Shown in pieces: positions 2,487 to 62,831 of a DNA stretch of 64,000 nucleotides. The stretch comes from Rufibacter sp. LB8 (GTDB lineage: Bacteria > Bacteroidota > Bacteroidia > Cytophagales > Hymenobacteraceae). The stretch covers positions 4,403,001 to 4,467,000 of the forward strand of contig NZ_JADALJ010000001.1 in NCBI RefSeq assembly GCF_014876185.1, read 5' to 3'. Position 1 is the stretch's first letter. The number at the start of each line of letters is the position of its first letter. Made by a program: the position numbers and the translations under genes. The notes beneath the pieces were generated by a model, which made no database searches, was not told the origin of the DNA, and worked only from the letters and a program-made list of their open reading frames with translations.

Positions 2487-2524
2487 CGTTTTCGGGCTCA
2501 TTTCCGGAAATGAGCCCGAAAACG
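2487..2524. repeat. P38 palindrome, copy 1
   Basis: Perfect 38-bp palindrome with 19-bp arms and no loop (centre CC|GG). It directly abuts the rdgB stop codon (2525-2527) on the downstream side. No T-run follows on either strand. Confidence 0.95.
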
Positions 2525-3121
2525 TCACGTCCCCGTTTGCACGTAGCGGTGCCGAAGAAACGAAATCAATTGCTGCACGGCGCGGCCGCGGTGGCTGATC
2601 TGGTTTTTTTCCTGGCTGTCCATCTCGGCGAAGGTGCGGTCCTGGCCCTCCGGCACAAAGATGGGGTCATAGCCAAAGCCTTTCTCGCCGCGCGGGGTTT
2701 CTATAATGTGGCCTTCCACAATGCCGTCAAACAAATGTTGCTCGCCTTCTTCCAAAATAAGGGCAATACTCGTTCTGGAGCGTGCTTTCCGGTTTTCCTT
2801 TCCTTCCAGGCCCGTCAAGACTTTCTGCATATTGGCCTGGTTGTCGCGGGCGGGGCCGGCGTAGCGCGCAGAGTACACGCCGGGTTCGTTGTGCAGGGCC
2901 TCCACTTCCAGTCCGGTATCATCGGCGAAGCACAGGACCTGGTAATGGTCCCAGACGTAGGTGGCTTTCTGCAGGGCGTTGCCTTCCAGGGTGTCCTGTT
3001 CCTCGGGCAGTTCCTGGGTACAGCCCAAATCAGACAAACTCACTATTTCAAAAGGCGGGCCCAGCAGCTGTTGAATTTCCTGCAATTTGTGGGCGTTGTT
3101 GGAGGCGAAGCAAAGTTTCAT
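2525..3121 (-). CDS. rdgB: Non-canonical purine NTP pyrophosphatase, RdgB/HAM1 family
   Basis: Hydrolyses ITP, dITP and XTP to monophosphates, keeping deaminated purines out of DNA and RNA. 198 residues from ATG 3121, MKLCFASNNAHKLQEIQQLL. Family motifs: SNNAHKLQE at the N-terminus, FADDTGLEVEAL near residue 70, PGVYSARYAG, and the C-terminal GFGYDPIFVPEGQDRTFAEM followed by KNQISHRGRA. An in-frame extension to 3280 is open but lacks family similarity and runs through a P38 copy, so it is rejected. A candidate -7 box TATCTTTA lies at 3148-3155 on minus. Confidence 0.95.
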   Translation of the reverse strand: MKLCFASNNAHKLQEIQQLLGPPFEIVSLSDLGCTQELPEEQDTLEGNALQKATYVWDHYQVLCFADDTGLEVEALHNEPGVYSARYAGPARDNQANMQKVLTGLEGKENRKARSRTSIALILEEGEQHLFDGIVEGHIIETPRGEKGFGYDPIFVPEGQDRTFAEMDSQEKNQISHRGRAVQQLISFLRHRYVQTGT

Positions 3122-3495
3122 AGGTGAAAGGTACGGGTATGCGGCTCTAAAGATAAGGCCAGGAGTTTCTTCCTGGGTACAGAAAATAAGCTGGGCCCTA
3201 AGAGTTGGCCGGGTTATTCTTGCAAAGTCGCTGTTTTTGAGCACATTTACGAAACAGAGCCCGAAAACACAAGCGCCCAATCATCTGTTTCTGTTGCAAA
3301 GCCTTGCGGCACTTTTGCACGGGCCTTGTACTTTTTCACGTAATTTGCGGCGCGGCCGTACTTTCTGGCGGTAGAAACGTAGAGGCACCCAAGGTTTCCC
3401 TTTTTTTTGCCGCCTGCAGTACCGGAGGACAGTTGCTCTTTGAGGGGCAGCGAATTCGGCCGGCAGGCCACACTATATATAAGACGCACACCAGA
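3122..3495. other. Divergent intergenic region rdgB / mlaE
   Basis: 374 bp with no gene. It holds a -7 candidate for rdgB (3148-3155, minus), a degenerate P38 copy at 3231-3270, and a weak candidate TAATTTGC at 3342 for the mla operon. I see no riboswitch-like structure. Confidence 0.6.
3231..3270. repeat. Degenerate P38 palindrome, copy 2
   Basis: The left arm CTGTTTTTGAGCACATTTAC and the right arm GAAACAGAGCCCGAAAAC match P38 with several mismatches. The right arm shares the variant ACAGAGCCCGAAAAC with the copy inside the helicase gene (18242-18281). It is one of few copies located upstream of genes on both sides. Confidence 0.65.
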
Positions 3496-4305
3496 ATGGA
3501 GTCCAATCCTGAGAAAGGGGAGAATGTAAAGCGGCGGAACCAGGTCTTTTCCAAAAAGATTGACCAGGTGTTCCTGACCTTGTATGACGTCTACTCTTTT
3601 ATAGTACGATTTTTCAAGGAGGTGTTCCTGCCGCCCTATGAGGGCAAAGAAATCATTCGGCAGGGTTATGAGATTGGCGTGAAATCACTGCCTTTGATCT
3701 CGCTCACCGGTTTTATCATCGGCATTGTGTTCATGAACCAAAGCAGGCCGTCACTGGCCGAGTTTGGGGCCACGTCCTGGTTGCCGTCTTTGGTGTCTCT
3801 GGCCATTGTGCGCGCCTTGGCGCCGCTGGTGACCGCCTTAATTGGCGCAGGAAGAATTGGGTCTATGATTGGCGCCGAACTGGGTTCCATGAAAGTGACC
3901 GAGCAGATTGAGGCCATGGAAGTGTCGGCCACCAACCCGTTCAAGTTTCTGGTGGTAAGCCGTATTCTGGCCACCACGTTCATGATTCCGGCGCTTATGA
4001 TGTACACCATGCTGGTGGCCTTGCTGGGTGCGTATATCAATGTGGCCGCCAATGAGGGCACCAGTTTTGTGACCTATTTCACGCAGGTGTTTGACGCCAT
4101 CACGTTCCTTGATATTTTTTCGTCGGTGCTGAAATCCATGGTGTTTGGGTTTACCATTGGGGCGGTGGGCTGCTACAAAGGCTATAATTCGTCTAAGGGC
4201 ACCGAGGGCGTGGGCCACGCGGCCAATTCATCTGTGGTGACGGCCATGTTTCTGGTGTTTATTGAGGAACTGCTGGCCCTGCAAATCATAACGGCCTTGC
4301 GCTAA
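3496..4305 (+). CDS. mlaE: MlaE-family ABC transporter permease
   Basis: Inner-membrane permease of the Mla/MCE phospholipid transport system. 269 residues from ATG 3496 (MESNPEKGENVKRRNQ); upstream in-frame sequence has no family similarity. Visible: a cytoplasmic N-terminal helix, then about five membrane segments starting SLPLISLTGFIIGIVF, the family signature with LVTALIGAGRIGSMIGAELGS at about residues 113-133, and TEQIEAMEVSATNPF directly after. The gene is followed 9 nt later by the ATPase and then by the MCE protein, the classic order E-F-D. Confidence 0.93.
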   Translation: MESNPEKGENVKRRNQVFSKKIDQVFLTLYDVYSFIVRFFKEVFLPPYEGKEIIRQGYEIGVKSLPLISLTGFIIGIVFMNQSRPSLAEFGATSWLPSLVSLAIVRALAPLVTALIGAGRIGSMIGAELGSMKVTEQIEAMEVSATNPFKFLVVSRILATTFMIPALMMYTMLVALLGAYINVAANEGTSFVTYFTQVFDAITFLDIFSSVLKSMVFGFTIGAVGCYKGYNSSKGTEGVGHAANSSVVTAMFLVFIEELLALQIITALR

Positions 4306-4314
4306 GTATCTGCC

Positions 4315-5091
4315 ATGAAGAAAAAAGCCGTACAAATAGACACCAATGACAGCGTCATCACTATCCGGGGACTTGTGAAGTCGTTCGGGAGCCTGGACGT
4401 GCTCAAGGGCGTGGACATGGATTTGTACCGGGGCGAAAACCTGGTGGTGCTGGGGAAATCGGGTACTGGCAAATCGGTGTTGATCAAGATAATCTCGGGC
4501 TTGCTGTACCCAGACCAGGGCACGGTGAACGTGCTGGGCCAGGAAGTGCCACTTTTGCGCGGCCGCCAGTTGGATGCGCTGCGACTCAAGATAGGGTTCT
4601 CGTTCCAGAACAGCGCCTTGTATGACTCCATGACCATTAGAAAGAACCTGGAGTTCCCGCTGGTGCGCAACCAGAAGAACCTTACCCGCAAAGAAGTAAA
4701 CCAACTGGTGGAGGTGGTGCTGGACGCCGTAGGGCTTTCACAAACCATTAACCAGATGCCGTCTGAGTTGTCTGGTGGGCAGCGCAAGCGCATTGGCATT
4801 GCCCGTACCTTGATTCTCAAGCCGGAGATCATGCTGTATGACGAACCCACGGCCGGGCTGGACCCCATCACCTGCATAGAAATCAACAACCTGATCAATG
4901 AGGTGCAGGAGTCGTTCAACACCTCGTCCATCATCATTACCCATGACCTGGCCTGCGCCAAAGCCGTGGGCGACCGCGTGGTGATGCTGCTGGACGGCGT
5001 CTTTCAGCGCCAGGGCACGTTTAAAGAAGTGTTTGACACAGATGAGCCCCGCGTAAAACTGTTTCATGATTACAATTTCATCATAGACTAA
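4315..5091 (+). CDS. mlaF: MlaF-family ABC transporter ATP-binding protein
   Basis: ATPase that powers the MlaE permease. 258 residues, close to the family length. Walker A is GKSGTGKS near residue 48, Q-loop SFQNSALYDS, ABC signature LSGGQRKRIGIAR, Walker B and neighbourhood LYDEPTAGLDPIT, switch histidine IITHDL. The QRKRI form of the signature and the SFQNSALYDSMT segment are typical of the Mla branch. It starts 9 nt after mlaE and its stop is immediately followed by the mlaD ATG. Confidence 0.95.
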   Translation: MKKKAVQIDTNDSVITIRGLVKSFGSLDVLKGVDMDLYRGENLVVLGKSGTGKSVLIKIISGLLYPDQGTVNVLGQEVPLLRGRQLDALRLKIGFSFQNSALYDSMTIRKNLEFPLVRNQKNLTRKEVNQLVEVVLDAVGLSQTINQMPSELSGGQRKRIGIARTLILKPEIMLYDEPTAGLDPITCIEINNLINEVQESFNTSSIIITHDLACAKAVGDRVVMLLDGVFQRQGTFKEVFDTDEPRVKLFHDYNFIID

Positions 5092-6207: not shown

Positions 6208-6271
6208 AAACAACAATTCCCGTTTTCGGGCTCATTTCTGGAAATGAGCCCGAAAACGGGAATTGTTGTTT
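6208..6271. repeat. P38 palindrome, copy 3 (extended arms)
   Basis: Perfect 31-bp arms (6208-6238 and 6241-6271), 2-nt loop TG. The core is the P38 consensus, extended outward by AAACAACAATTCC. It lies 10 nt after the mlaD stop, between convergent genes. Confidence 0.95.
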
Positions 6272-8589: not shown

Positions 8590-8633
8590 TTCCGTTTTCG
8601 GGCTCATTTCCAGAAATGAGCCCGAAAACGGGA
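8590..8633. repeat. P38 palindrome, copy 4
   Basis: 19-bp perfect arms (8592-8610, 8613-8631), loop CA, 1-3 nt after the upstream stop codon. Confidence 0.95.
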
Positions 8634-11062: not shown

Positions 11063-11151
11063 TGAGCATGATGCAGATTGTCGCAATTTTATATTGCTGT
11101 CATCATGAAAGGACCTTGGTGGCAAACTTGAAAAACGGTTAGTTTTATTTG

Positions 11152-11228
11152 GCCTCTAAGGCGCGGAAGTTATTTCCGTGACTTTCTGGAACAAATAGTC
11201 ACGGAAGTAACTTCCGCGCCTTAGAGGC
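11152..11228. repeat. 77-bp inverted repeat
   Basis: 32-bp arms with one mismatch, left arm beginning GCCTCTAAGGCGCGGAAGTT, loop of 13 nt. Each arm has an inner palindrome-like GGAAGTTATTTCC. A shorter relative, GATTTACTTCCGTGGC / GTCACGGAAATAAATC, occurs at 13129-13180. No coding capacity; MITE-like. Confidence 0.8.
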
Positions 11229-11288
11229 TAATAGAAGAAAAGTTTAATAGTAACTACTCGCTCGCGTCTACCGAGTGAAAAAATATAA

Positions 11289-12898: not shown

Positions 12899-12946
12899 AA
12901 ACCCGTTTTCGGCTTCATTTCCAGAAATGAAGCCGAAAACGGGTTT
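12899..12946. repeat. P38 palindrome, copy 6 (GGCTTC/GAAGCC variant)
   Basis: Perfect 23-bp arms (12899-12921, 12924-12946) with loop CA. The core reads CGGCTTC paired with GAAGCCG in place of CGGGCTC / GAGCCCG, so both arms changed together. Confidence 0.95.
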
Positions 12947-13277: not shown

Positions 13278-14225
13278 ATGTTCAAACGGCTGCTGCAAAA
13301 CCTACAGGATTACTTCAATTTCTCTCAGCAGGAGCTTCGGCAGTTTTTTATTTTGTTGGCCTTGATGGTGGGCCTGCTAGCTGCGCCGTTTCTCTTTTTT
13401 CAGGACGATGTGTCCTATGACCCTACCGCCGACCAGCAGATTCTGGACAGCCTGGTGGTGCAACTAGATAACCACGCGGAGGAAGTAGCCGCGGAGCGCA
13501 AAAGCCGCTACCAACCCAAGCCCATCAAACTATACCGCTTCAACCCCAACCAACTCACCGTGGAGCAATGGCAGGAACTGGGCCTGCGGTCCTACATCGC
13601 GCAGCGCATTTTAAACTACCGCGCCAAGGCCGGCGACTTCAAAAGCAAAGCGCAACTTCAGAAAATCTACGGCCTGCCAGATTCCCTTTTCCAGCTGTGG
13701 TACCCATACATTGATTTGCCAGACGAAAGTCCCGGTTACGCATACAACAAAGACCGTCCGTTTCCGGGCTCCAGTTCTGAAACGAGGCCTAAAACAGACT
13801 ACGCCCGCAAGCGCTGGGAACTGCAGCCCTTTGATTTGAACTCGGCTGATACGACGCAGCTCAAACAGATACGCGGCATTGGCAGCAAACTTTCGCAACG
13901 CATTGTCACGTTCCGGGACAAAGTGGGCGGTTTTCACAGCCTGGATCAGGTGGCTGAAGTTTATGGTCTGTCGCCGGAAGTGGTGGACAGCGTGAAGAAA
14001 TATGCGTTCTTGGAAAAGGCTAGCGGCCTGCAGAAAATCAATGTGAACACTGCCACGTTTGACCAGCTCAGACTTCACCCGTACATTGGCTACAACCTCG
14101 CCAAAGCCATTATCAATTACCGAACGCAGCACGGCCCGTACCCCAGCGTGGAGGAATTGCGCAAGATCAAGGTGCTGGACGAAGGCAAGTTCCAGAAGAT
14201 GCAGCCGTACCTGAGCGTACAGTAA
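13278..14225 (+). CDS. ComEA-like helix-hairpin-helix protein
   Basis: Predicted membrane-anchored DNA-binding protein. 315 residues: one N-terminal membrane segment (FFILLALMVGLLAAPFLFF, about residues 23-41) and three HhH-type repeats. They cover FNPNQLTVEQWQELGL (about 92-107), FDLNSADTTQLKQIRGIG (about 186-203) and INVNTATFDQLRLHPYIG (about 254-271). The role could be DNA uptake or repair at the envelope; no other competence genes are near. Residues about 161-173 (between HhH 1 and 2) are encoded by a decayed P38 copy, giving FPGSSSETRPKT. Confidence 0.85.
   Translation: MFKRLLQNLQDYFNFSQQELRQFFILLALMVGLLAAPFLFFQDDVSYDPTADQQILDSLVVQLDNHAEEVAAERKSRYQPKPIKLYRFNPNQLTVEQWQELGLRSYIAQRILNYRAKAGDFKSKAQLQKIYGLPDSLFQLWYPYIDLPDESPGYAYNKDRPFPGSSSETRPKTDYARKRWELQPFDLNSADTTQLKQIRGIGSKLSQRIVTFRDKVGGFHSLDQVAEVYGLSPEVVDSVKKYAFLEKASGLQKINVNTATFDQLRLHPYIGYNLAKAIINYRTQHGPYPSVEELRKIKVLDEGKFQKMQPYLSVQ
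13758..13797. repeat. P38 copy 7, inside the HhH gene
   Basis: CCGTTTCCGGGCTCCAGTTC followed by a right arm GAAACGAGGCCTAAAACAGA. It keeps the reading frame open and lies between two HhH repeats. Confidence 0.75.
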
Positions 14226-14227: not shown

Positions 14228-14268
14228 CCTGTTTTCGGCTTCATTTCTGAAAACGAGGCCAAAAACGG
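14228..14268. repeat. P38 palindrome, copy 8 (degenerate)
   Basis: Left arm CCTGTTTTCGGCTTCATTTC, right arm GAAAACGAGGCCAAAAACGG; begins 2 nt after the upstream stop codon. Confidence 0.85.
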
Positions 14269-14291: not shown

Positions 14292-14387
14292 CCTTGGTCT
14301 GTCCCCTGACAGACCAAACAACTCAGTCCTTTTCTAGAAAGTTTACCTTGAACCCATTACTTTGGTCTGTCAGGGGACAGACCAAGG
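14292..14387. repeat. 96-bp inverted repeat with nested palindromes
   Basis: Perfect 27-bp arms, left beginning CCTTGGTCTGTCCCCTGACA. Each arm itself holds TTGGTCTGTC...GACAGACCAA. The interior is unrelated AT-rich sequence. MITE-like; no open frame of note. Confidence 0.8.
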
Positions 14388-14532: not shown

Positions 14533-17500
14533 ATGCCCAACCCAGAAACTCCGCTTCCTGCCCTGCTCAAACAATACCAGCGCCGCTTGTTGAATCTGAG
14601 CGGTTCTAATCGTTCTTTGGTGTTGCTCAAACCTTCGGCCAGTCTGCATTTAGACCTTCACGCGCTGGACCATGCACACAAAGGACCATCGTTTGACTAC
14701 ATCAAAGACCTGTTGGTGGGCAAGCAGAATTTGCCGCTCTGCGCCGTGGCCGATGCCCGTGATGCCGCTTTGGCACCGTTGACCAAGGCCTTGAAAACTA
14801 TTCAGCGGCGGGCGCACATGATTTGGGAAGAGCGCGGCGCGAAGGAATTGTTTGTAGGCTACCCCATGGTGGAAGGTGCTTTTCCGGACGGTACGTTGGT
14901 GCGCTGCCCGCTGCTGTTTTTCCCGGTGGAACTGAAAATCAACGAGAAACGGCAATGGCAACTGACCAGACCCGAGGACACGCCCGCCTTCTTCAACAAA
15001 AGCTTTTTGCTGGCCTACGCGCATTATCTAAACGTGAAACCCGACGAAGCTTTGATGGAAGAGGATTTCGAGGAGTTTCCGTCTGATGACCTGCAATTCA
15101 GAACCAAGCTTTATGAATTGCTCAAGGAAAGTAACGTAGACATCAACTTCAACCAGGAACTACTCAAAGACACGCTGCAGCCGGTTAAAGCCTACAAGCG
15201 CGAGGAACTGGAGAAAACCTGGAAGCCGGGGCAACTCAAACTTCAGCCGGAGGCGATGTTAGGGATTTTTCCGCAGGCGGGTTCTTACCAATTGGCAGAT
15301 TATGACGAACTGCTGGAAAACCCACCGGCAGATTCCCTGGAAGAACTGTTGTTGCCGCATACCGAAATATCCTCTGCCCAAGCGCAACTGGAGCAGCAAC
15401 TGTTCACCGCCTTTGACGCCGATGCCTCGCAGGAAGCAGCGCTTCGGCAGGTAAAAGCGGGGCAGAGCGTGGTGGTGCAGGGTCCGCCGGGCACAGGTAA
15501 GTCGCAGTTGATTTGTAATTTGGTTTCTGATTATCTGGCGCGCGGAAAAAGTGTGCTGGTGGTCTGCCAGAAACGCGCTGCCCTGGATGTGGTGTACCAA
15601 CGGCTGTCTACCACTGGTCTGGATGATTTTTCGGCGTTGGTGCATGACTTGAATTTAGACCGGCCCGCCGTTTTCTCCAAAATCAGGCAGCAGATTGAAC
15701 AGGTGGAGGAATACCAGCGGCAGAACGTGGCCCTGGGCAACATTCAGGCGGAGCGGCAGTTCCTGGAAACCAGCCGTCGCATCAACCAAATCTCAGAAAG
15801 GCTGGCCAGTTTGAAGGAAGCGCTGTTTGATACATCTGTCTGCGGTTGGTCTGCCAAAGAACTGTACCTGCGCAGTAATCCGCGCGGGCCGCATGTGCCT
15901 GCCGAGGGAATTTACCCGCACTTCACCGCCCAGACCTGGCCCGAGTGTCAACCGCGCCTGGTTCATTACCTGCAAGACGCGGTGCTGCTGCAAAACCCAG
16001 ACTTCCCGTGGGCCGACCGCCGCTCGTTTCACCTGCACACCTGGGCCGAGCGCCAGAAAATTACCCAACTACTTTCTGAGATTCCAACTTCGGTGCAAAC
16101 CTTGGCCAGTCAATTGCAGGAATTGCTTCCGGCGCAGGCTGAGCCCTGGGATGCGCTGCAAGCCTTGGTGCAGGAAATCTCCACGCTGCAGGAAATCCAG
16201 CAAACCCTCACGGACAAAGCCGTTTCCAGGCTCTATTTTGGAAACGCAGCCCAAACCAGCGACTACAAACAGCGGGAGGCGCTGCTTCAGCAATTGCAGA
16301 AGGAAACGGCCGCGGTGCAGACCAAACTTACGCCAGACGAAGCACTGCAACTAACCCAATTATTAGCGGCGTATGACGAAGCGCAAAGCGGTTTCCTGAG
16401 CAAGATTGGATGGAGTTTTTCCTCAGATAAAAAGAAATTATCGGCTTTCGCCGAAGGTAAAAATTTAACGAATCCAGACACGGCGGTGGAGCATTTGCGC
16501 ACGGCCCTTAAGCAACAAGAAACGCTGCAACAACACTGGCAAAAATTGCAAACCTTGGAGCCCACCTTGGAAGTTCCGGCAGATGTGTACAGCACCGCCG
16601 CCGCGCAGGAACTGGCCCATCTGCAACAGGCCTGGGAGCTCCGGAAAACCGTGCAGAAACTGTTGGCCTATGACCTATTGCCCGATGAATTATTGCAGCT
16701 GGCTCCCGAGCGGTTCCAAAGAATCATTTCCGAAGGCTTGCCCAAATTGCAGGACTTACAGGAACAGATACACGGCTGGCAGCAGTGGCTCACGCCCAGT
16801 CAGATAGAAATAGTAGCCACCAACCCAGAAGCCACGCAGGAATTAGCGCAGAGCCTGAACGAGCATTTTGACCGGATGGTGGCCTTTGACGAACTGGTGC
16901 GGTCATTTTCCCCGGAACTTAAAAGCTGGCTTGAGAACATTCGGCAGGCGGTACCGGCAGGCGTTGAACAGCAACTGAAAACCATAGAAAACAGCGTTTT
17001 GCTGGCGTGGCTGCAACAGATTGAAGGCCAGAACCCCGTCTTAACCATTGTAAGCACCGGTGAATTGGAGCGCCTGGAAACTGAGCTGCAGGAGAAAATC
17101 AAGCAGAAAGCCGAACTCAGCCGTCAAATCATCTTGCTCAACCTCAGAGAGCAGACCTACCAGAACATGGAGTTCAACCGCCTGGGCAACCCGGTCACAT
17201 ACCGGCGCTTGCTCACGCAGGTCAGCAAGAAGCGCATGTTGTACCCACTCCGTAAACTCAATGCTGAGTTCGGCGACGAGATACGGCGGTTATTGCCGTG
17301 TTGGCTAGCTTCGCCGGAAACGGTGTCTGCGTTGTTTCCGCTGGAGCGCATTTTTGATTTGGTGATTTTTGACGAAGCATCGCAGTGTTTTGCCGAGGTG
17401 GGCGTGCCGGCCATGGTGCGCGGCAAACAAGCCGTGATTGCCGGCGACGAGCAGCAGTTGGGCCCGTCGGATTTGTACCGCGTGCGGTTTGGAAATGAAG

Positions 17501-18528
17501 AGGATGAAACCGAAGAATTGCTGGTGGAATCTTTGTTACAGTTGAGCGCGCTGCACCTTCCGCAGACCTTGCTTTCTGAGCACTACCGCAGCCAGTACCC
17601 CGAATTGATTCAGTTTTCCAACCAGAATTTCTACCGCGAAAAACTGCAGCTGATTCCCAGAATGGAGGCCATGAACACCACCGAGCCCGCGCTGCAATAC
17701 CTCAAAGTTGACGGCATCTGGGAAAACCAAACCAATAGGGTAGAGGCTGAGCGCGTGCGGGATCTGGTGTTTGACTTGATGGCTAGTGGCCAGACCAACA
17801 TCGGGGTCATTACTTTCAACTTCCCGCAGCAGCAGTTGGTGCAGGATTTACTGGAGGAACACGCCTTGGCGCAAAATGTGCAGCTACCCGAAGAGCTGAT
17901 TATCAAGAACATAGAGAATATTCAGGGCGATGAAAGGCAGTATATCATTTTCTCCATTGGCTACGCGCCAGATGCGAGCGGCGTGGTGCGCGCCATGTTT
18001 GGGAGTTTGAACGCGGCCAAAGGGGAAAATAGGTTGAATGTGGCCATTACGCGCGCCATCAAGCGGGTGTACGTGGTCACCAGCCTGTGGCCCGAGCAGT
18101 TCCCGGTAGAGAACGTGAAACACCCCGGCCCCAAACTGCTGCGCGACTACCTGGCCTTCGCGAAAGAGGTGAGCGAGAACGGGTTTTCGCCCAAGCCGGT
18201 CACGGCCTCCGGCATTCCGTCTGCGTTGCTGTTGTACCCGCTGCTTTTGGCTTCATTTGCAGAACAGAGCCCGAAAACGAAACTATCTGCAGAACTTCCC
18301 TTCGCTGACCTCACTTTCCGCAACGGTAACCAGTACCAGGCCGTACTGTTAACCGACGACGATTTGTACTTCCGGCGGCCCACGCCCAAAGCCTCGCACG
18401 CCGATGTGCCCTTGCGCCTGCAGGCCCGGGGCTGGAAATATGGGGCCGTATACAGTCGGCAGTTCTGGAGCCAGCCGCAACAGGTGTGGCAAAAATTAGC
18501 TGAACTATCCCAAGACTATGAAAAATAA
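14533..18528 (+). CDS. Large SF1 (DNA2/NAM7-like) helicase with DUF4011-like N-terminus
   Basis: Predicted nucleic-acid translocase; 1331 residues. N-terminal region (residues 1-290) with LLNLSGSNRSLVLLK, resembling the DUF4011 entry of this helicase group. Walker A is GPPGTGKSQL at about residue 317. A long coiled-coil insert (about 390-900, rich in Gln/Leu/Glu) precedes Walker B LVIFDEASQC at about 943, then GDEQQLGPSD, LSEHYRSQ, and the C-terminal motifs ENIQGDERQYIIFS and RLNVAITRA. The last ~110 residues resemble the nuclease-like tails of such proteins but no catalytic motif is clear. A P38 copy is in frame at 18242-18281. The stop overlaps the next gene by 11 bp. Confidence 0.85.
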   Translation: MPNPETPLPALLKQYQRRLLNLSGSNRSLVLLKPSASLHLDLHALDHAHKGPSFDYIKDLLVGKQNLPLCAVADARDAALAPLTKALKTIQRRAHMIWEERGAKELFVGYPMVEGAFPDGTLVRCPLLFFPVELKINEKRQWQLTRPEDTPAFFNKSFLLAYAHYLNVKPDEALMEEDFEEFPSDDLQFRTKLYELLKESNVDINFNQELLKDTLQPVKAYKREELEKTWKPGQLKLQPEAMLGIFPQAGSYQLADYDELLENPPADSLEELLLPHTEISSAQAQLEQQLFTAFDADASQEAALRQVKAGQSVVVQGPPGTGKSQLICNLVSDYLARGKSVLVVCQKRAALDVVYQRLSTTGLDDFSALVHDLNLDRPAVFSKIRQQIEQVEEYQRQNVALGNIQAERQFLETSRRINQISERLASLKEALFDTSVCGWSAKELYLRSNPRGPHVPAEGIYPHFTAQTWPECQPRLVHYLQDAVLLQNPDFPWADRRSFHLHTWAERQKITQLLSEIPTSVQTLASQLQELLPAQAEPWDALQALVQEISTLQEIQQTLTDKAVSRLYFGNAAQTSDYKQREALLQQLQKETAAVQTKLTPDEALQLTQLLAAYDEAQSGFLSKIGWSFSSDKKKLSAFAEGKNLTNPDTAVEHLRTALKQQETLQQHWQKLQTLEPTLEVPADVYSTAAAQELAHLQQAWELRKTVQKLLAYDLLPDELLQLAPERFQRIISEGLPKLQDLQEQIHGWQQWLTPSQIEIVATNPEATQELAQSLNEHFDRMVAFDELVRSFSPELKSWLENIRQAVPAGVEQQLKTIENSVLLAWLQQIEGQNPVLTIVSTGELERLETELQEKIKQKAELSRQIILLNLREQTYQNMEFNRLGNPVTYRRLLTQVSKKRMLYPLRKLNAEFGDEIRRLLPCWLASPETVSALFPLERIFDLVIFDEASQCFAEVGVPAMVRGKQAVIAGDEQQLGPSDLYRVRFGNEEDETEELLVESLLQLSALHLPQTLLSEHYRSQYPELIQFSNQNFYREKLQLIPRMEAMNTTEPALQYLKVDGIWENQTNRVEAERVRDLVFDLMASGQTNIGVITFNFPQQQLVQDLLEEHALAQNVQLPEELIIKNIENIQGDERQYIIFSIGYAPDASGVVRAMFGSLNAAKGENRLNVAITRAIKRVYVVTSLWPEQFPVENVKHPGPKLLRDYLAFAKEVSENGFSPKPVTASGIPSALLLYPLLLASFAEQSPKTKLSAELPFADLTFRNGNQYQAVLLTDDDLYFRRPTPKASHADVPLRLQARGWKYGAVYSRQFWSQPQQVWQKLAELSQDYEK
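18242..18281. repeat. P38 copy 9, inside the helicase gene
   Basis: TGCTTTTGGCTTCATTTGCA then GAACAGAGCCCGAAAACGAA, read in frame as LLASFAEQSPKTK near residues 1238-1250. It lies between the helicase core and the C-terminal tail. Confidence 0.75.
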
Positions 18529-19482: not shown

Positions 19483-19524
19483 TGCGTTTTTGGCCTCGTT
19501 TTGAGAAATGAGCCTGAAAACGGA
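19483..19524. repeat. P38 palindrome, copy 10 (degenerate left arm)
   Basis: TGCGTTTTTGGCCTCGTTTT then GAGAAATGAGCCTGAAAACG; imperfect arms. Confidence 0.8.
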
Positions 19525-19580
19525 AAAAATAAATGGCCTCACTGGTTGTATAACTTGTGGGGCTTTTTTGTGGACTGGAA

Positions 19581-19685
19581 CCCACCCCTAACCCCTCCAA
19601 GGAGGGGAATAAAAATGCGTGCTAGGATAAAAAGGAAATTTATACGTTTGGAGACACTCCCCTCCTCGGAGGGGTTAGGGGTGGG
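19581..19685. mobile_element. 105-bp inverted repeat of the CCCACCCCTAACCCC type
   Basis: Arms begin CCCACCCCTAACCCCTCC (19581-19598) and end with its exact complement (19668-19685); inner arm extensions AAGGAGGGG / CCCCTCCT form further stems. The AT-rich interior is non-coding. Possibly a distant relative of the CCCTCACCC family. Confidence 0.65.
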
Positions 19686-19733
19686 TAAAGCATTGCGCTA
19701 CTCTTGCCTCTGCCCAAACGCAGAGCCTGAACA

Positions 19734-19780
19734 ATTCCGTTTTCGGCTTCATTTTCAGAAATGAGGCTGAAAACGGAAAT
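19734..19780. repeat. P38 palindrome, copy 11
   Basis: TTCCGTTTTCGGCTTCATTT and AAATGAGGCTGAAAACGGAA pair except for one or two positions. Confidence 0.9.
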
Positions 19781-21587: not shown

Positions 21588-21629
21588 TTTCCGTTTTCGG
21601 CTTCGTTTTCAGAAATGAGCCCAAAAACA
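21588..21629. repeat. P38 palindrome, copy 12
   Basis: TTTCCGTTTTCGGCTTCGTT and GAAATGAGCCCAAAAACA. It directly abuts the intrinsic terminator stem that begins at 21629. Confidence 0.85.
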
Positions 21630-21661
21630 AAGGCCTTGCTGAAATCTTCAGCAAGGCCTTT
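21629..21661. terminator. Bidirectional terminator between convergent genes
   Basis: AAAGGCCTTGCTGAA (21629-21643) pairs perfectly with TTCAGCAAGGCCTTT (21647-21661). The T-run is better on the minus strand, where the P38 right arm supplies TTTGTTTTTGG. Confidence 0.85.
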
Positions 21662-23646: not shown

Positions 23647-24050
23647 AGAAAAATTCTCTAAGGTTATAGAATGGTTAGTTGGGTAAGCTAACCTGCCATA
23701 GCGTTAGGTAAGAGAAGGATGTCCTATGGCAAGTACCCTATCTATACGAGCCCTTTTTTGCATGGTTAGCGCATTGTTGATTTTAGAAATGGGGCCCAGG
23801 CCAGGAATCCTGTTTAGAACGGCCCCGCACCCCCTGACCATTAGTGCGTTGTGGAACAAACAGTGACCAGTTAGTAAACCCGCTGACTACCAGGTTGCTT
23901 GGTCCTTCTCCACATGGCAGAAATTAAAAAGCCCTTCTGTTTTGGGGCTCATTTCCAAAAATGAGCACTAAAACAGAAGGGCTGATGCGTAAGGTGCTTT
24001 TGATTTCTTTTAAACCTCTAAGTAAGCCAAGCGAAAGCTTTTTATGCAGC
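23647..24050. other. Intergenic region upstream of the low-complexity gene
   Basis: 404 bp with no gene. It holds an inverted pair TGCCATAG (23694-23701) / CTATGGCA (23724-23731), a GGTTAG / CTAACC pair near 23673-23693, and P38 copy 13. I find no exact TAnnTTTG element for the low-complexity gene, so it may use an alternative sigma factor or a site I missed. Confidence 0.5.
23931..23982. repeat. P38 palindrome, copy 13 (extended arms)
   Basis: Outer arms GCCCTTCTGTTTT / AAAACAGAAGGGC are perfect; the inner part GGGGCTCATTT / AAATGAGCACT is imperfect. It lies downstream of the EEP gene on minus. Confidence 0.85.
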
Positions 24051-27538: not shown

Positions 27539-28001
27539 AGGTAAATTCCTTTATATGAATAATTCTTGTTTTCAAACCATGAAGGCGTCTGGCAGCGCTC
27601 CGGTAACACCAGAGACGGTTGGCCAAGTAGTTGACGCTCAGGGAATACCCTGAGTCTCAGAGGCCGGCGCAGCAGGCAGATTGCTCTTTTTGCCGCGGGG
27701 GCACAGACCCTTAATTAACAAATATAATAACTTAATCTGAATAGGCAGGCACGATTTACCCGCAATTGCCCAGGCCGTTTTGGGGCTCATTTCTGGAAAT
27801 GAGCCCCAAAACGGGAATTTGCTCTGCCATTTAAGGCGTGTTTCTTCCTGCATATCCCTGCTTTTCAAGACGAACTCTTTTACAGTTTTTAACAAAGCAC
27901 CCCGCGCGAAGAAAGCGCTTTTTCAACGAAGCCGGACTAAGTTGGTTTTGAATCTGGCCGGTCATTTTGTTTCTTGTGCTTGCTTTCCGTACGCTACGCC
28001 T
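27539..28001. other. Divergent intergenic region ricT / GNAT
   Basis: 463 bp with no gene. It contains P38 copy 14 and an AT-rich stretch around 27715-27740. An open frame runs from 27780 into the GNAT gene but its first 74 codons show no family similarity and begin inside the palindrome. Confidence 0.65.
27775..27814. repeat. P38 palindrome, copy 14 (GGGGCTC/GAGCCCC variant)
   Basis: Perfect 19-bp arms with TTTTGGGGCTC paired with GAGCCCCAAAA: a C-to-G change in one arm matched by G-to-C in the other. Loop TG. Confidence 0.95.
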
Positions 28002-28861: not shown

Positions 28862-28902
28862 TGCGTTTTGGGGCTCGTTTTGGGAAATGAGGCCGAAAAC
28901 GG
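28862..28902. repeat. P38 palindrome, copy 15 (degenerate)
   Basis: TGCGTTTTGGGGCTCGTTTT and GGGAAATGAGGCCGAAAACG; begins 2 nt after the GNAT stop codon. Confidence 0.85.
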
Positions 28903-33330: not shown

Positions 33331-33369
33331 CCGTTTTCCGGCTCATTTCCCAAAACGAAGCCAAAAACG
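33331..33369. repeat. P38 palindrome, copy 17 (degenerate)
   Basis: CCGTTTTCCGGCTCATTTCC and AAAACGAAGCCAAAAACG. It abuts the stop codon of the minus-strand response regulator at 33375. Confidence 0.8.
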
Positions 33370-33374
33370 CCAAC

Positions 33375-35331: not shown

Positions 35332-35371
35332 CTGTTTTGGGGCTCATTTCCAGAAACGGGCCCCAAAACGG
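35332..35371. repeat. P38 palindrome, copy 18
   Basis: CTGTTTTGGGGCTCATTTC, loop CA, GAAACGGGCCCCAAAACGG. The GGGG/CCCC co-change is seen again, with the arm partly decayed near the loop. Confidence 0.85.
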
Positions 35372-36231: not shown

Positions 36232-36555
36232 ATGACTTCTGCCTGGTTTTACCTCATTGCCGCCGGCATCTGCGAGATTGGTTGGGCCATAGGCTTGAAA
36301 TACACCGAAGGCTTCACCAAAATTGGGGCCAGCGTGGCCACCGTAGTAGTCATGATTTTGAGTTTTGTGCTGCTGGCCCAGGCCATGAAAACCTTGCCGC
36401 TGGGCACCGCTTACGCCTCCTGGACCGGCATTGGCGCCGTGGGCACCGCCATCTTCGGCATCATTCTCTTCAATGAACCCAAAGACCTGGTGCGCCTGCT
36501 GTGCATTGGCTTGATCATCGCCGGCGTGCTAGGCCTTAAATTCTTGTCAAAGTAA
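36232..36555 (+). CDS. gdx: SMR-family guanidinium exporter (Gdx/SugE type)
   Basis: Small proton-coupled exporter that works as a dimer. 107 residues with four membrane helices. The essential glutamate lies in AAGICEIGWAIGLKYTEGFT; the GLKYTEGFTK loop and SWTGIGAVGTAIFGIILFNEP are characteristic of the guanidinium-transporting Gdx branch rather than drug-exporting EmrE. I looked upstream for a guanidine riboswitch and did not recognise one. Single gene followed by P38 copy 19. Confidence 0.9.
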   Translation: MTSAWFYLIAAGICEIGWAIGLKYTEGFTKIGASVATVVVMILSFVLLAQAMKTLPLGTAYASWTGIGAVGTAIFGIILFNEPKDLVRLLCIGLIIAGVLGLKFLSK

Positions 36556-36594: not shown

Positions 36595-36642
36595 ATTCCC
36601 GTTTTCGGGCTCATTTCCAGAAATGAGCCCGAAAACGGGAAT
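36595..36642. repeat. P38 palindrome, copy 19
   Basis: Perfect 23-bp arms (36595-36617, 36620-36642), loop CA. The following sequence TTACTTTTTTCCATTTAT repeats the flank of copy 20, which is the 3' end of the propeller gene. Confidence 0.95.
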
Positions 36643-36956: not shown

Positions 36957-37009
36957 TAATTCCCGTTTTTGGCCTTCATTTCCAGAAATGAGCCCGAAAA
37001 CGGGAATTA
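36957..37009. repeat. P38 palindrome, copy 20 (left arm decayed)
   Basis: Outer TAATTCCCG / CGGGAATTA are perfect; left core TTTTTGGCCTTCATTTC versus right GAAATGAGCCCGAAAA. Its right end overlaps the stop codon of the propeller gene (37007-37009). Confidence 0.9.
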
Positions 37010-39245: not shown

Positions 39246-39283
39246 CCGTTTTTGGCCTCTATTTCTGAAATGGGCTACAAAGG
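39246..39283. repeat. P38 palindrome, copy 21 (heavily decayed)
   Basis: CCGTTTTTGGCCTCTATTTC and GAAATGGGCTACAAAGG. It overlaps the ftsH stop codon (39275-39277), so the last residues of FtsH fall in repeat-derived sequence. Confidence 0.65.
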
Positions 39284-41398
39284 AAGCGGCGTGCCGCCAC
39301 CTGAGTTAGGTCTATCGTTTGGTTCTATAGGCCGAGGGTTCACGTCATCTAGCGCAGAAGTTGGCGGCAAGTCTTCCAATGGAGCCTGCGGAATAGGATG
39401 CGTTTCAGCGGCTACTTCGCTCAGGGTTTTGCTGCGGTCTGTACCGGCGGTGTGCGCCTGATAATTGGTCAAGCCTTCAAAAGGTCTTGGGCCAACCAAA
39501 CGCTCCAGGTCATTCTGAAACAAAATTTCCTTGCTCAGCAATTCCTGGGCTACCATTTCCAACTCATTGCGCTTGTCAGACAACAATTGCAGCGTGCGGT
39601 TGTAGGCATCACTTACCAGAATACGCACCTCAGAGTCAATGACTTCAGCGGTGGTTTCAGAATAGGGCTTGGTGAACGTGTTGTCTGGCTGCTTGGAGTC
39701 ATAGAAAGACAGGTTGCCAATCCGCTCATTCATGCCGTACATGGTTACAATGCTGTAGGCCATTTTGGTGATGCGCTCCAGGTCACTCAAAGCACCCGTA
39801 GAAATCTTTCCGAACACAATCTGCTCGGCAGCCCGGCCACCCAGGGCCATGCACATCTCGTCTACCAATTGCTCAGTGGTGTACAGGAACTGCTCTTTTG
39901 GCAGGTATTGCGCATAGCCCAACGCAGCCACGCCGCGCGGTACGATGCTCACTTTTACCAACGGGTCACAGTGCTCCAGGAACCAACCCGCAATAGCGTG
40001 GCCGGCCTCATGGTACGCTACAATTTTCTTTTCCTCCGGCGAGATAATCTTGTTTTTCTTCTCCAAACCACCAATCACGCGGTCAATGGCGTCATTGAAG
40101 TCCTGCATGTCAATGGCTTTTTTGTTCCGGCGGGCGGCAATCAAAGCGGCTTCATTACACACGTTGGCAATCTCAGCACCGGCGAAACCGGGGGTCTGGG
40201 CAGCTAACTTACGGGCATCAATATCATCTGCCAATGTCAACGGGCCTAAGTGTACCGTGAAAATCTGGGTACGGCCGTTGATGTCTGGCTTGTCAATGCT
40301 AATCTGGCGGTCAAAACGACCCGGGCGAAGCAAGGCAGAATCCAGAATGTCTGGGCGGTTGGTAGCGGCTAAAATGATTACGCCAGAATCAGTGGCGAAA
40401 CCATCCATTTCCACCAATAGGGAGTTCAAAGTGTTTTCGCGTTCGTCGTTTCCGCCGGGCATCTGTCCACGGCTACGTGAGCGGCCGATGGCGTCAATTT
40501 CATCAATAAAGATGATACAGGGCGCTTTGGCTTTGGCTTGCTTAAACAAGTCACGTACCCGCGCAGCACCTACGCCCACAAACATCTCCACGAAGTCAGA
40601 ACCTGACAAAGAGAAGAAAGGAACGTCAGCCTCGCCGGCTACGGCTTTGGCCAGTAAGGTTTTACCGGTACCCGGAGGACCTACCAACAAGGCACCTTTC
40701 GGGATTTTACCGCCCAGAATGGTGAACTTGGTAGGGTTCTTCAGGAACTCCACAATCTCTTCAATCTCTTCTTTGGCTTCTTCTAAACCGGCTACGTCTT
40801 TGAACGTGATTTTCACCTTGTTCTCGGCGTCAAACAGCGCGGCGCGTGACTTGCCAATGTTGAAGATCTGCCCACCGGCTCCGCCACCCGCCATGCGGCG
40901 CATCAGGAACCAGAAGCCCACCATCAACAAGATGAAGAATGGCCAGCCCATCAATAATTCTAAGAGACCGGTGCGTTTCTCAATCTCCAACCCAATGCGT
41001 TCCTCCCGCGGTAGTTCGGCCTGCAGTTTGTCCAGGTCTTCTTTGAACGCTTCAGCCGTAATAATGGGGAAGTTGAAGTGTGCGCCCTGCGTGGTGGTAG
41101 AGAACGTGCCGCGGTTGTCCAGTTGGTTTTTGTACTTGGCGTTGTTGAGGGCCTCTTTTTTGAGGGTGATCTCTACCATGTTGTTGTTCACCACCGCTAC
41201 TTTCTGCACGTCTTTGGCCAACAGCATTTCCTCAAACTGCGGCTGCCGTATCTCCACGGTGGCGTTCAGGTTGTTGTAGTACGTGAGTCCGAAGATGAAC
41301 AACACCAGGGCTGCCAGCACCCAAATCTGCATAGTGGGCCGGGGCGGGGTGGTGGGTAAATTTATTTTGCGTTTTTTCTTTTCTGGTTTTTCAGTCAT
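39275..41398 (-). CDS. ftsH: ATP-dependent zinc metalloprotease FtsH
   Basis: Inner-membrane protease that degrades misfolded and short-lived proteins. 707 residues. Basic N-terminus, first membrane helix ([17 protein letters not shown], about 24-41), second helix ([15 protein letters not shown], about 152-166). AAA domain: Walker A GPPGTGKT (240-247), Walker [36 protein letters not shown]. Zinc site [12 protein letters not shown] near residue 465. Proline/Asn-rich C-terminus ending GGGTPLPL. It follows rsfS with a 51-nt gap and is likely cotranscribed. Confidence 0.96.
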
Positions 41399-42651: not shown

Positions 42652-42693
42652 TCCTGTTTTCGCGCTCATTTCCAGAAACGAGGCCAAAAACGG
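42652..42693. repeat. P38 palindrome, copy 22 (degenerate)
   Basis: TCCTGTTTTCGCGCTCATTT and GAAACGAGGCCAAAAACGG; starts 1 nt after the birA stop codon. Confidence 0.85.
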
Positions 42694-47818: not shown

Positions 47819-47870
47819 AAATTCCTGTTTTCGGGCTCATTTTCAGAAATGAGCCCGAAAACAGGAATTT
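47819..47870. repeat. P38 palindrome, copy 24 (extended arms)
   Basis: Perfect 24-bp arms (47819-47842, 47847-47870), loop TCAG, outer AAATTCCTG / CAGGAATTT. It lies 13 nt after the rlmB stop. Confidence 0.95.
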
Positions 47871-52764: not shown

Positions 52765-52807
52765 GAAACAAAAAAAGCAGGTGGTTTTCGCCTGCTTTTT
52801 TTGTTTC
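52765..52807 (+). terminator. Intrinsic terminator of recQ
   Basis: GAAACAAAAAAAGCAGG (52765-52781) pairs perfectly with CCTGCTTTTTTTGTTTC (52791-52807), 9-nt loop, with the T-run in the stem. Can work in both directions. Confidence 0.92.
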
Positions 52808-52818: not shown

Positions 52819-52862
52819 TTCCGTTTTCGGCCTCATTTCCAGAAATGACCCCGAAAACGGAA
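52819..52862. repeat. P38 palindrome, copy 25
   Basis: TTCCGTTTTCGGCCTCATTT and GAAATGACCCCGAAAACGGA, loop CA, one mismatch pair in the core. It sits 12 nt after the recQ terminator, so termination is already provided. Confidence 0.9.
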
Positions 52863-54361: not shown

Positions 54362-54402
54362 CCGTTTTCTGGCTCTGTTCCGGAAATGGAGGCAAAAATG
54401 AC
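54362..54402. repeat. P38 palindrome, copy 26 (degenerate)
   Basis: CCGTTTTCTGGCTCTGTTCC and GGAAATGGAGGCAAAAATG. It abuts the hairpin at 54404. Confidence 0.75.
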
Positions 54403-54455: not shown

Positions 54456-54463
54456 CATCTTTG
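54456..54463 (+). promoter_or_regulatory. Candidate -7 element of the CoA hydrolase gene
   Basis: CATCTTTG, one mismatch to TAnnTTTG, 43 nt before the start codon. Confidence 0.35.
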
Positions 54464-54506
54464 CGCCAGATTTCCGTAAAAGAACCGGAAAACCAACGCA
54501 AGAACT

Positions 54507-55848: not shown

Positions 55849-55961
55849 TTCCTTCTCCCTCTGGGAGAAGGTTAGGATGAGGGAGATATCTATCACGTTA
55901 TTAGTAAACTTAACCAAAAGAATACACCCTCACCCTAACCCTCTCCCAGAGGGAGAGGGGA
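55849..55961. mobile_element. CCCTCACCC-type inverted repeat, copy b
   Basis: TTCTCCCTCTGGGAGAAGGT at the left and CCCTCACCCTAACCCTCTCC then CAGAGGGAGAGGGG at the right; 113 bp with a non-coding AT-rich core. Same orientation as copy a. Confidence 0.8.
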
Positions 55962-55970: not shown

Positions 55971-56012
55971 TTCCGTTTTCGGGCTCATTTCTGGAAATGG
56001 GGCCAAAAACAG
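55971..56012. repeat. P38 palindrome, copy 27 (degenerate right arm)
   Basis: TTCCGTTTTCGGGCTCATTT, loop CTG, GAAATGGGGCCAAAAACAGA. Its right end is shared with the stem of the terminator at 56006. Confidence 0.85.
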
Positions 56013-57401: not shown

Positions 57402-57451
57402 GATTCCCGTTTTTGGCCTCGTTTCCAGAAATGAGCCCAAAAACGGGAATC
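57402..57451. repeat. P38 palindrome, copy 28
   Basis: Outer GATTCCCGTTTTTGG / CCAAAAACGGGAATC are perfect; core GCCTCGTTTC versus GAAATGAGCC is nearly so. Loop CA. Confidence 0.9.
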
Positions 57452-57771: not shown

Positions 57772-57815
57772 CTCTGTTTTTGCCTTCGTTTCCAGAAATG
57801 AGCCTGAAAACAGAG
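57772..57815. repeat. P38 palindrome, copy 29
   Basis: CTCTGTTTTTGCCTTCGTTT and GAAATGAGCCTGAAAACAGA; the outer CTCTG pairs with CAGAG. Loop CA. Confidence 0.85.
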
Positions 57816-61528: not shown

Positions 61529-61530
61529 TT

Positions 61531-62283
61531 TTGAGCCCGATCAGACCGGTCTTACGCGCGTTCCATAAATTCTTCTACAAAGACAAGGCCTTTGTTACCG
61601 CCATCACCCGCATTACGGGCATGGCGCCAGACAACCTGCACCTGTACCAACTGGCGTTTACGCACACGTCATTCGTGCGCCAGAACCTCAATGGCAACCA
61701 GGAAACCAATGAGCGCCTGGAGTTTCTGGGTGATGCTATATTGGGTTCGGTGATTGCCGAATACCTTTTCAAGAAATACCCCTACAAAGACGAAGGTTTC
61801 CTGACAGAGATCCGGTCCCGCATGGTGAACCGCGAGTCACTCAATAGCCTGGCTGTTAAAGTGGGCTTGAATTCCCTAGTGAAAGTGGACAGCGCCTCTG
61901 GCGTGAACCGGCACAAGTTCATCAACGGCAATGCGCTGGAAGCCCTGGTAGGCGCCGTGTATTTAGACAAAGGCTACAAAGACACCAAAGACTTTATCTT
62001 GAAGAAACTGGTGAAACCGCACTTTGACCTGCACCAGCTCACCACCACCACCAGCAACTTCAAAAGCAAACTGATTGAATGGGCCCAAGGCCAGAACCGC
62101 AGCATCAGGTTTGAGATTGTAGGCCAGAAGCAATCTGGTAGCGTCACCGAGTTTACCGCCGCCGTGGTGGTGGACAATGACATCATTGCCACTGGCGCCG
62201 GGCTCTCCAAGAAAAAAGCTGAACAAGCCGCCGCCGAAAAAAGCATGGACGTGCTCAAATCCAAAGGCATCAATTTGGTGTAG
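61531..62283 (+). CDS. rnc: Ribonuclease III
   Basis: Cleaves double-stranded RNA in rRNA and mRNA processing. 250 residues from TTG 61531 (MSPIRPVLRAFHKFFYKD); the next in-frame ATG would delete part of the first helix, so TTG is preferred. Catalytic signature ERLEFLGDAILGSVIAEYLF, EALVGAVYLDKGY with the second acidic residue, and a C-terminal dsRBD (SKLIEWAQGQNRSIRFEI ... FTAAVVVDNDIIATGAGLSKKKAEQAAAEKSM). Two nt after fabF, likely translationally coupled. Confidence 0.95.
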   Translation: MSPIRPVLRAFHKFFYKDKAFVTAITRITGMAPDNLHLYQLAFTHTSFVRQNLNGNQETNERLEFLGDAILGSVIAEYLFKKYPYKDEGFLTEIRSRMVNRESLNSLAVKVGLNSLVKVDSASGVNRHKFINGNALEALVGAVYLDKGYKDTKDFILKKLVKPHFDLHQLTTTTSNFKSKLIEWAQGQNRSIRFEIVGQKQSGSVTEFTAAVVVDNDIIATGAGLSKKKAEQAAAEKSMDVLKSKGINLV

Positions 62284-62285
62284 TT

Positions 62286-62328
62286 TTCTGTTTTCGGGCT
62301 CGTTTCTGGAAATGAGGGGAAAAACGGG
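62286..62328. repeat. P38 palindrome, copy 30 (degenerate)
   Basis: TTCTGTTTTCGGGCTCGTTT and GAAATGAGGGGAAAAACGGG; begins 2 nt after the rnc stop. Confidence 0.8.
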
Positions 62329-62468
62329 TATTTCTTTTCGTGTTAAATCCTTTTACTTTTAGTTATTCCTTCCTCTAAATAGGAGGAATAATTATGCATT
62401 CAGTTCAGGCTAATCCATGCAATGGCGCGGGAGTTACTTCTGAGACTTTCTACAAAATATTAACGCTA

Positions 62469-62594
62469 ATCGGGATTTCTAATCCCGATTCACTCTGTCG
62501 GGATTTCCTAATCCCGTACTGCGGCTTCTGGAAATGCTAGTGCCGGGGATTTTTAAATCCCAGACAGACTACTTTCGGATTGGTAAATCCGAAA
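62469..62594. repeat. Cluster of CGGGATTT / AATCCCG palindromes
   Basis: AATCGGGATTTCTAATCCCG extended, then a second CGGGATTTCCTAATCCCG, GGGGATTTTTAAATCCC, and TTTCGGATTGGTAAATCCGA. The segment around 62560-62598 matches 13060-13098 in 35 or more of 39 positions. Confidence 0.75.
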
Positions 62595-62684
62595 GAGCAG
62601 AATTTCTTTCTTCTTCTCTTAGAATCCTTGAATAACAGCTTTCCTAATTTTAGCTTCTTTCTCTGCTGCAAGTTTGGCGTGGTA

Positions 62685-62713
62685 GTAGAGACAAGGCATT
62701 GCCTTGTCTCTAC
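62685..62713. repeat. GTAGAGAC palindrome
   Basis: GTAGAGACAAGGCA paired with TGCCTTGTCTCTAC, 29 nt with a central T. A related half occurs at 6272-6295. Confidence 0.75.
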
Positions 62714-62747
62714 GGATTAGGTCCCATCAGTCGCCAGCTCAAAAGAC

Positions 62748-62773
62748 CTCGTAGTGCGCGAAGCTCCTACGAG
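62748..62773. repeat. CTCGTAG inverted repeat
   Basis: CTCGTAG (62748-62754) and CTACGAG (62767-62773) around a 12-nt centre GTGCGCGAAGCTC-like. Confidence 0.5.
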
Positions 62774-62786
62774 TGTCTCAGCCAAA

Positions 62787-62831
62787 CCCCGTTTTTCGGC
62801 TTCATTTCCATAAATGAGGCCGAAAACGGAG
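62787..62831. repeat. P38 palindrome, copy 31
   Basis: CCCGTTTTTCGGCTTCATTT and AAATGAGGCCGAAAACGGAG; loop CCAT. Confidence 0.85.

Follow-up and report, generated by a model that had tools for sequence, protein, structure and literature searches.

Short palindromes that recur between bacterial genes are usually explained by a transposase, as with repetitive extragenic palindromic (REP) sequences and REP-associated tyrosine transposases (RAYT), and signals that occur in dialects are usually explained by uptake, as with DNA uptake sequences (DUS). The part of PMC3733652 that was available describes REPs and bacterial interspersed mosaic elements (BIME) with RAYT (the GTAG family) as extragenic, imperfect and asymmetric palindromes of 20–40 bp in high copy number, and CGTC-tagged palindromic repeats as seemingly without a dedicated transposase and reported also from Bacteroidetes. 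The available part of PMC3630211 describes the DUS of Neisseriaceae as occurring genome-wide in species dialects, in inverted pairs near terminators, and commonly inside genes as well. Here we analyzed a 64,000-nucleotide stretch of the genome of Rufibacter sp. LB8 (contig NZ_JADALJ010000001.1, positions 4,403,001 to 4,467,000; hereafter the window), in which a palindrome designated P38 recurs. A preliminary description, made from the window alone, had proposed that P38 might be a REP-like family moved by a RAYT, a DNA-uptake or chromosome-organising signal, or a domesticated terminator. We found that P38 is a strictly palindromic unit located mostly at gene ends, with conserved positions and a consensus proper to each species: its places are held across species while its spelling shifts genome-wide, and tightly and loosely spelled species occur within one genus. 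We give about an even chance to the interpretation that P38 is a Rufibacter-specific family of hairpin-forming, slightly asymmetric 40-bp palindromes, that is, an inherited gene-end hairpin of REP-like form, the copies of which overwrite each other where they stand; this judgement covers jointly the inheritance, a job at gene ends and the overwriting. A search of the open literature (titles and abstract openings, with subscription journals mostly outside) returned no description of the repeat, and a word search of the available main text of PMC13155455 found neither Bacteroidota nor Rufibacter.

Abundance, range and gene-end placement of P38

Matches to one arm of P38 with up to three mismatches numbered 42 in the window, compared with 0.03 expected from shuffled sequence. 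Full-length P38 was recognized at 34 sites that agreed with the consensus at 24 or more of its 38 positions, 30 of them at 28 or more, so that the 31 copies initially reported were about right. The reported perfect palindromes, at least eight in number, were also recovered, as eight P38 inverted repeats whose arms, 19 to 31 nt long, were 100% complementary. Among the 32 sites that could be placed relative to called genes, 28 lay in spacers, in line with the statement that almost all copies do so, and four (scores 25 to 29) lay in a called gene; two further sites lay past the last called gene. A scan of the window against Rfam gave no family at or above the gathering score.

Whole palindromes were then counted genome-wide as matches with up to three mismatches to a degenerate 38-mer, using the reversed pattern as a control. 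The LB8 genome contained 1329 + 1312 arm matches on the same mismatch limit (1 and 0 for the reversed pattern) and about 1,706 whole palindromes (0 in the control). A 1.104-Mb sample of the chromosome, in which 526 full-length copies were found, was analyzed in detail. P38 was present in all 16 Rufibacter genomes examined, at 106 to 1,706 sites each, exceeding 1,000 in seven and reaching 980 in an eighth. In 134 genomes belonging to five further genera of the family, sites were at about the control level. Among 117 non-Rufibacter genomes of the order (eight of the same family, all one genus), three had a single site and the rest none, and the reversed control gave one match in four. In 542 kb of Hymenobacter loci, inverted repeats with a 2-nt centre occurred per 10 kb at about one fifth of the window's frequency, and those listed were assorted, often terminator-like hairpins. 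P38 is thus a real family, neither confined to the window nor at a frequency set by composition, and it falls to background in the genomes searched outside Rufibacter. An exact P38 40-mer had no match in genome_contigs, where LB8 or a very near genome is perhaps not included, a 24-mer had none in viral_contigs, and a 46-mer consensus had none in plasmids.

Genes were called with a purpose-written hexamer script, which gives approximate start positions. Placement succeeded for 522 copies: co-directional spacers contained 309 of them, convergent spacers 129 and divergent spacers 57, and the other 27 fell within called genes. Considering spacers of at least 45 bp, P38 occupied 91 of the 111 between convergent genes, 237 of the 421 between co-directional genes and 45 of the 118 between divergent genes. 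The palindrome began 0–9 nt past the stop codon in 63 of the 309 co-directional copies, and some co-directional copies included the stop codon. Whether or not a gene had a reciprocal best hit in the sampled part of the G013 genome, P38 was equally frequent at its end (81 of 119 with a hit and 29 of 44 without; G numbers denote relatives), a result that says little because the sample covers only part of that genome.

Conserved positions and species spellings

Occupancy by P38 was compared in spacers between conserved gene neighbours. Between LB8 and G013, 59 spacers were occupied in both, 17 in LB8 only, 11 in the relative only and 61 in neither (odds ratio 19), and between G007 and G013, which share 90% protein identity, 45 were occupied in both, 34 in neither, and two and one were discordant. 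Discordant occupancy therefore amounted to 28 of 148 and 3 of 82 spacers, respectively, counted as presence or absence of a site. Smaller samples agreed (both/LB8 only/relative only/neither: G007, 11/4/1/10; G006, 9/2/1/10; G009, 12/3/3/9; G005, 12/0/1/9). The distance to the stop codon was kept within 4 nt in 12 of 29 co-directional LB8–G013 pairs, as against 3.6 by permutation.

The letters at these positions differed from species to species. With up to two mismatches, the LB8 spelling gave 1028 + 1027 arm matches in LB8 and 2 to 52 in each of the 15 relatives. The consensus arm was CCGTTTTCGGGCTCATTTC in LB8, CCGTTTTTGGCCTGTTTTC in G007 and G013, CTGTTTTGGGGCTGTTTTC in G006 and GCGTTTAGGGGCTGTTTTT in G005. 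Ten species had a loose consensus of 10.6 to 14.2 bits per arm and the other six one of 17.4 to 24.4 bits; these values come from 40–72 kb per species (468 kb for G013) with the profile trained on the same sequence, and the loose group was set by our reading of consensus strength, which small samples also lower. In a FastTree phylogeny of 19 genes with a midpoint root, LB8 branched as the sister of the G007–G013 pair, and the ten loose species, G008 excepted, made up a single clade of nine. The loosely spelled species retain paired arms.

The centre of the palindrome was CA (213) or TG (191) in 404 of 534 copies, and each such copy therefore has an orientation. When 400 chromosomal copies were oriented by their centre, variants at columns 11, 12, 13, 15, 16 and 19 differed between the two arms (p 1.5e-5 to 4e-17), with a weaker difference at columns 4 and 10; orientation was thus linked to variants in the arms as far as 9 nt from the centre (p to 4e-17). 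At shared sites, orientation was not clearly kept: nine LB8–G013 pairs were the same and 12 flipped, and ten G007–G013 pairs were the same and six flipped. Across 36 G007–G013 pairs, divergence of P38 was overdispersed (variance 13.9 versus 6.7) and unrelated to that of the flanks (rho 0.06), and in comparisons of LB8 with four relatives other than G013 (seven to nine pairs each) orthologous copies were no more alike than random pairs. Some columns had changed in 42% to 51% of cells between G007 and G013, compared with 24% in flanks, but these columns were chosen after the fact and we give the figure no weight.

The same places bearing a new spelling argue for vertical inheritance of the site and rewriting of its letters, and copying of whole units between palindromes would produce both the association of arm variants with the centre and the unstable orientation at fixed sites. 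The differing spellings at shared places suggest that some process rewrites the copies jointly. As to function and agent, we infer the following. A P38 site would be inherited vertically and stay mostly fixed at the 3′ end of a gene, where the hairpin would have a job, most likely as a structure of the transcript end that protects the mRNA 3′ end or helps termination; alternatively, it may act as a structure in the DNA of transcription-unit ends. A gene-conversion-like or template-switch process would let copies overwrite one another in place, in either orientation, and so spread one spelling through the genome. Where overwriting has presumably weakened, as in the ten loose species (nine of which form a clade), what is left would be chiefly the pairing together with a GTTT...CTGTTTT core. 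It is possible, although we lean somewhat against it, that this represents concerted evolution on a genome-wide scale, in which a trans-acting agent, either hairpin-directed copying or a co-evolving recognition protein, brings the roughly 1,000–1,700 fixed gene-end palindromes of a chromosome to the species spelling, and in which weakening of this agent in one clade has left mainly structure-conserved hairpins. Because places are fixed, spelling changes genome-wide and tight and loose species coexist in one genus, P38 allows one to seek, through gene content and strain resequencing, the factor that homogenises short bacterial repeats.

Stem pairing and candidate roles

Pairing was assessed by comparing the observed arms with arms re-dealt among copies. 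The lower stem (columns 1–4 and 7–10) paired above expectation in co-directional copies both of LB8 (z 5.7, 307 copies) and of the loosely spelled group of ten (z 5.1, 111 copies). In that group, RNA read in the sense of the upstream gene also folded better than the antisense, by −1.80 kcal/mol (n 111, p 3e-6), the difference being 0.00 in other spacer windows (n 727).

Several results weigh against an inherited, overwritten hairpin. In-place overwriting is deduced from comparison between species, and no single conversion event was seen. Orthologous LB8–G013 copies differed at 11.93 of 40 positions compared with 12.76 for random pairs (40 pairs), a residual similarity by which overwriting would be incomplete, and P38 divergence between G007 and G013 (21%) was not above that of the flanks (26%). 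The 27 copies in called genes and the 57 in divergent spacers do not fit a gene-end role. The upper stem in LB8 paired below expectation (z −3.7), which a pure hairpin does not predict. Shuffled P38 copies of the loose species gave −1.69, nearly the real strand difference, which therefore lies in G+T content and could be mutational. P38 of LB8 (0.13) and of G007/G013 (0.52) had no sense-strand preference, although other spacer windows of LB8 had a small one (−0.27, p 3e-5). The excess of G:U over A:C pairs was weakly above the composition control in the loose species (p 0.10), and the same test was null in LB8. Selection at the RNA level is therefore suggested in the loose group only.

Part of this evidence would be accommodated by the main alternative, that P38 is the site of a dimeric, genus-specific DNA-binding protein that acts at transcription-unit ends, whether as a roadblock, in a gyrase-like role or in chromosome folding; the dialects would then reflect drift of the protein's specificity, with the sites following by selection. 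The starts of the two arms were exactly 21 nt apart in all 330 arm pairs at 10–59 nt separation, columns 5 and 6 were nearly invariant (0 changes in 72 between G007 and G013), positions are conserved, and the CA strand was the leading strand in 237 of 396 copies (237 versus 159, p 1e-4; assigned by GC skew in three sampled regions). When LB8 copies were examined for the properties of a dimer site, the upper arms were independent or anti-correlated, with pairing not above chance, the lower arms covaried and the centre was asymmetric. A centre-linked difference between arms is, however, unexpected for a symmetric dimer, loose species keep their sites without a tight consensus, and changing four columns per arm at about 1,700 sites by independent selection is demanding. 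We consider this explanation, with its putative protein, unlikely.

Hairpins at gene ends might also be intrinsic, bidirectional transcription terminators, and we scanned for T-run terminators with a stricter and a lenient setting. In LB8, the lenient scan gave P38 as the stem-loop of such a terminator at 54 of 365 ends that carry it, and the stricter scan at 8 of 411; P38 could serve in this way at 12–15% of its ends. Its stem was extended outward by at least six pairs in 12% of the co-directional copies and 16% of the convergent ones, compared with none of 57 divergent or 27 coding copies, which, like the gene-end position, would suit a terminator. Other T-run terminators were, however, equally common at ends with and without P38 on the lenient scan (170 of 365 and 118 of 252), and three groups of relatives gave similar results. 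On the stricter scan they were found at 62 of 235 co-directional ends with P38 versus 50 of 168 without, and at 74 of 176 convergent ends with P38 versus 22 of 38 without, so that P38 may weakly substitute for T-run terminators at convergent ends. The flank profile showed T/A enrichment only, beside CCG...CGG, and the usual 3′ flank is AAA and not a T run. P38 is therefore not tied to T-run terminators in LB8, and the proposed domesticated terminator found no support as a general role. We regard intrinsic termination as a very unlikely explanation of the family.

A REP-type element mobilised by a Y1/RAYT transposase, at present or in the ancestor of the genus, would account for the size, palindromy, asymmetry, copy number and extragenic placement of P38, and several RAYTs are encoded in Rufibacter genomes. 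LB8 has six matches to PF01797 (Y1 transposase), all outside the window and the nearest about 95 kb away, which agrees with the remark that the window has no transposase gene. Including two further RAYT-like genes, the flanks of seven of eight genes were read (the gene at C1:2758328 was left out). Four of the seven had P38 arms no more than 200 bp from the match, a proportion no higher than in co-directional spacers generally (237 of 421). The IS200-type gene at L085 was the sole one with P38 on both sides, 123–144 and 195–216 bp from the match, and the gene at L101 had one arm 4 bp away. Other repeats, identified by eye, stood on both sides at L101 (GGACAGGTCGCGACCTGTCC), L127 (GTAGAGACAAGGCAGTGCCTTGTCTCTAC), L155 (CTACGAGGTCTTTTGAGC) and L085 (GGCTAAAGCC) and on one side at L131, and short palindromes stood at the L006 pair. 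The 14-mers of GGACAGGTCGCGACCTGTCC, GTAGAGACAAGGCAGTGCCTTGTCTCTAC and CTACGAGGTCTTTTGAGC recur 14 to 23 times in the sample; GGCTAAAGCC is 10 letters long. As an aside, L101, L127, L131, L155, L006 and L085, all on contig C1, apparently represent several parallel small REP/RAYT pairs in one genome.

In one RAYT lineage, shared by G013, G006, G001 and G002, P38 was located 45–66 nt upstream of the gene, and these copies look like inherited gene-end sites, though a link with the RAYT is possible. G007 had no PF01797 match at E 0.001 despite its 1,293 P38 sites, and the one RAYT-like protein found there was bordered by another repeat. Occupancy in G007 and G013 was nearly identical, and the second contig of LB8 (C2, 155 kb, L009–L016) was nearly free of P38, with eight weak copies (nine with a looser seed, versus one in the control). 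P38 therefore has no tie beyond background to the RAYT genes read; of the REP-like family moved by a RAYT, the form, density and gene-end place are supported and the mobility is not, and we judge transposase-driven spread distinctly unlikely, although an ancient spread in the ancestor of the genus may have taken place. Several arms on C2 are in the G007/G013 dialect and not in that of LB8, as if this replicon came from another Rufibacter or escapes homogenisation.

Counts above 1,000 (seven of the 16 genomes), dialects and association with gene ends would also be expected of an uptake signal resembling DUS or uptake signal sequences (USS). However, only 1 of 664 P38 arms (up to three mismatches) lay outside a palindrome, while intragenic DUS are common according to the available part of PMC3630211 and just 27 of 522 P38 copies are in called genes. 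An uptake signal is thus hardly probable at all.

Copies in the window and comparison with described systems

The P38 sites of the window are listed below.

Table. P38 and P38-like sites in the window, with the number of consensus positions matched (of 38) or arm pairs formed (of 19) where given.
Positions	Strand	Description
2486..2525		18/19 pairs, 37/38 to consensus
3231..3270		Decayed (28/38), divergent spacer
6208..6271	-	Perfect, arms lengthened to 31 bp, core 6220-6259, TG centre, convergent spacer
8592..8631	+	Perfect, CA centre, 3 nt past stop codon
11290..11329		P38 copy
12903..12942	+	GGCTTC in each arm, 19/19 paired
13758..13797		Weak P38-like site (29/38) within called gene
14229..14268	-	3 nt past stop codon
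16220..16259		Weak P38-like site (26/38) in called long helicase-like gene 14533-18528
18241..18280		Weak P38-like site (29/38) in the same helicase-like gene, 14533-18528
19484..19523		P38 copy
19737..19776	+	16/19 paired
21591..21630	+	Convergent spacer
23937..23976	+	Left arm of GGGG type
27775..27814	-	Both arms of GGGG type, 19/19 paired, divergent spacer
28863..28902		3 nt past stop codon
31804..31843	+	CTG in each arm, 19/19 paired, divergent spacer
33331..33370		Convergent spacer
35332..35371	+	P38 copy
36449..36488		Very weak P38-like site (25/38) in called gene, chance possible
36599..36638	+	Perfect, convergent spacer
36964..37003	+	Second P38 in the convergent spacer shared with 36599..36638
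39246..39285		Very weak P38-like site (25/38), chance possible
42654..42693	+	3 nt past stop codon
46819..46858		Perfect, CG centre
47825..47864	+	CTG in each arm, 18/19 paired; inverted repeat 47819-47870, arms 24 bp
52821..52860	+	Behind separate A/T-rich hairpin (52765-52807)
54362..54401		Decayed (28/38)
54456..54495		Very weak P38-like site (24/38), chance possible
55973..56012	-	Convergent spacer
57407..57446	+	Convergent spacer
57774..57813	+	Convergent spacer
62288..62327	-	4 nt past stop codon of gene ending at 62283
62790..62829	+	Close to window end

Other features were observed in the window. An 83-bp inverted repeat at 11149-11231, 90% complementary (GCGCGGAAGT...ACTTCCGCGC), belongs to a second repeat family of the genome, whose GGCGCGGAAGTTAC occurs 11 times in the sampled sequence. 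Long hairpins of the ACCCACCCCTAACCCC / CCCTCACCCTAACCC kind, with loops of 49 and 43 nt, are located at 19580-19686 and 55851-55959, and a perfect 27-bp inverted repeat (CCTTGGTCTGTCCCCTGACAGACCAAA) with a 42-nt loop at 14292-14387 lies beyond the P38 at 14229. The region 21685-23646 encodes a low-complexity protein rich in serine and glycine, of which the 627 aa searched had no Pfam match.

Intrinsic terminators share with P38 the position of a hairpin past the stop codon; P38 differs in that it mostly has no T run, has one common sequence per genome and does not replace T-run hairpins in LB8. DUS, as far as the available part of their description goes, resemble P38 in their genome-wide species dialects and in their inverted pairs near terminators, but they are common within genes, whereas P38 arms hardly ever stand alone. 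The CGTC repeats, on the available part of their description, are likewise palindromic and seemingly without a dedicated transposase, but they have stems of 8–9 bp, loops of 4–5 and the CGTC tag, none of which P38 has; neither a GTAG nor a CGTC tag appeared at the foot of P38 in the flank profile. Unlike REP/BIME, P38 lacks a GTAG tag and, as far as RAYT flanks were read, a cognate RAYT, is built of 19-bp arms around a 2-nt centre, and holds largely fixed positions across species; like REP/BIME, as described in the part of the source available, it is a short, asymmetric extragenic palindrome present in high copy number.

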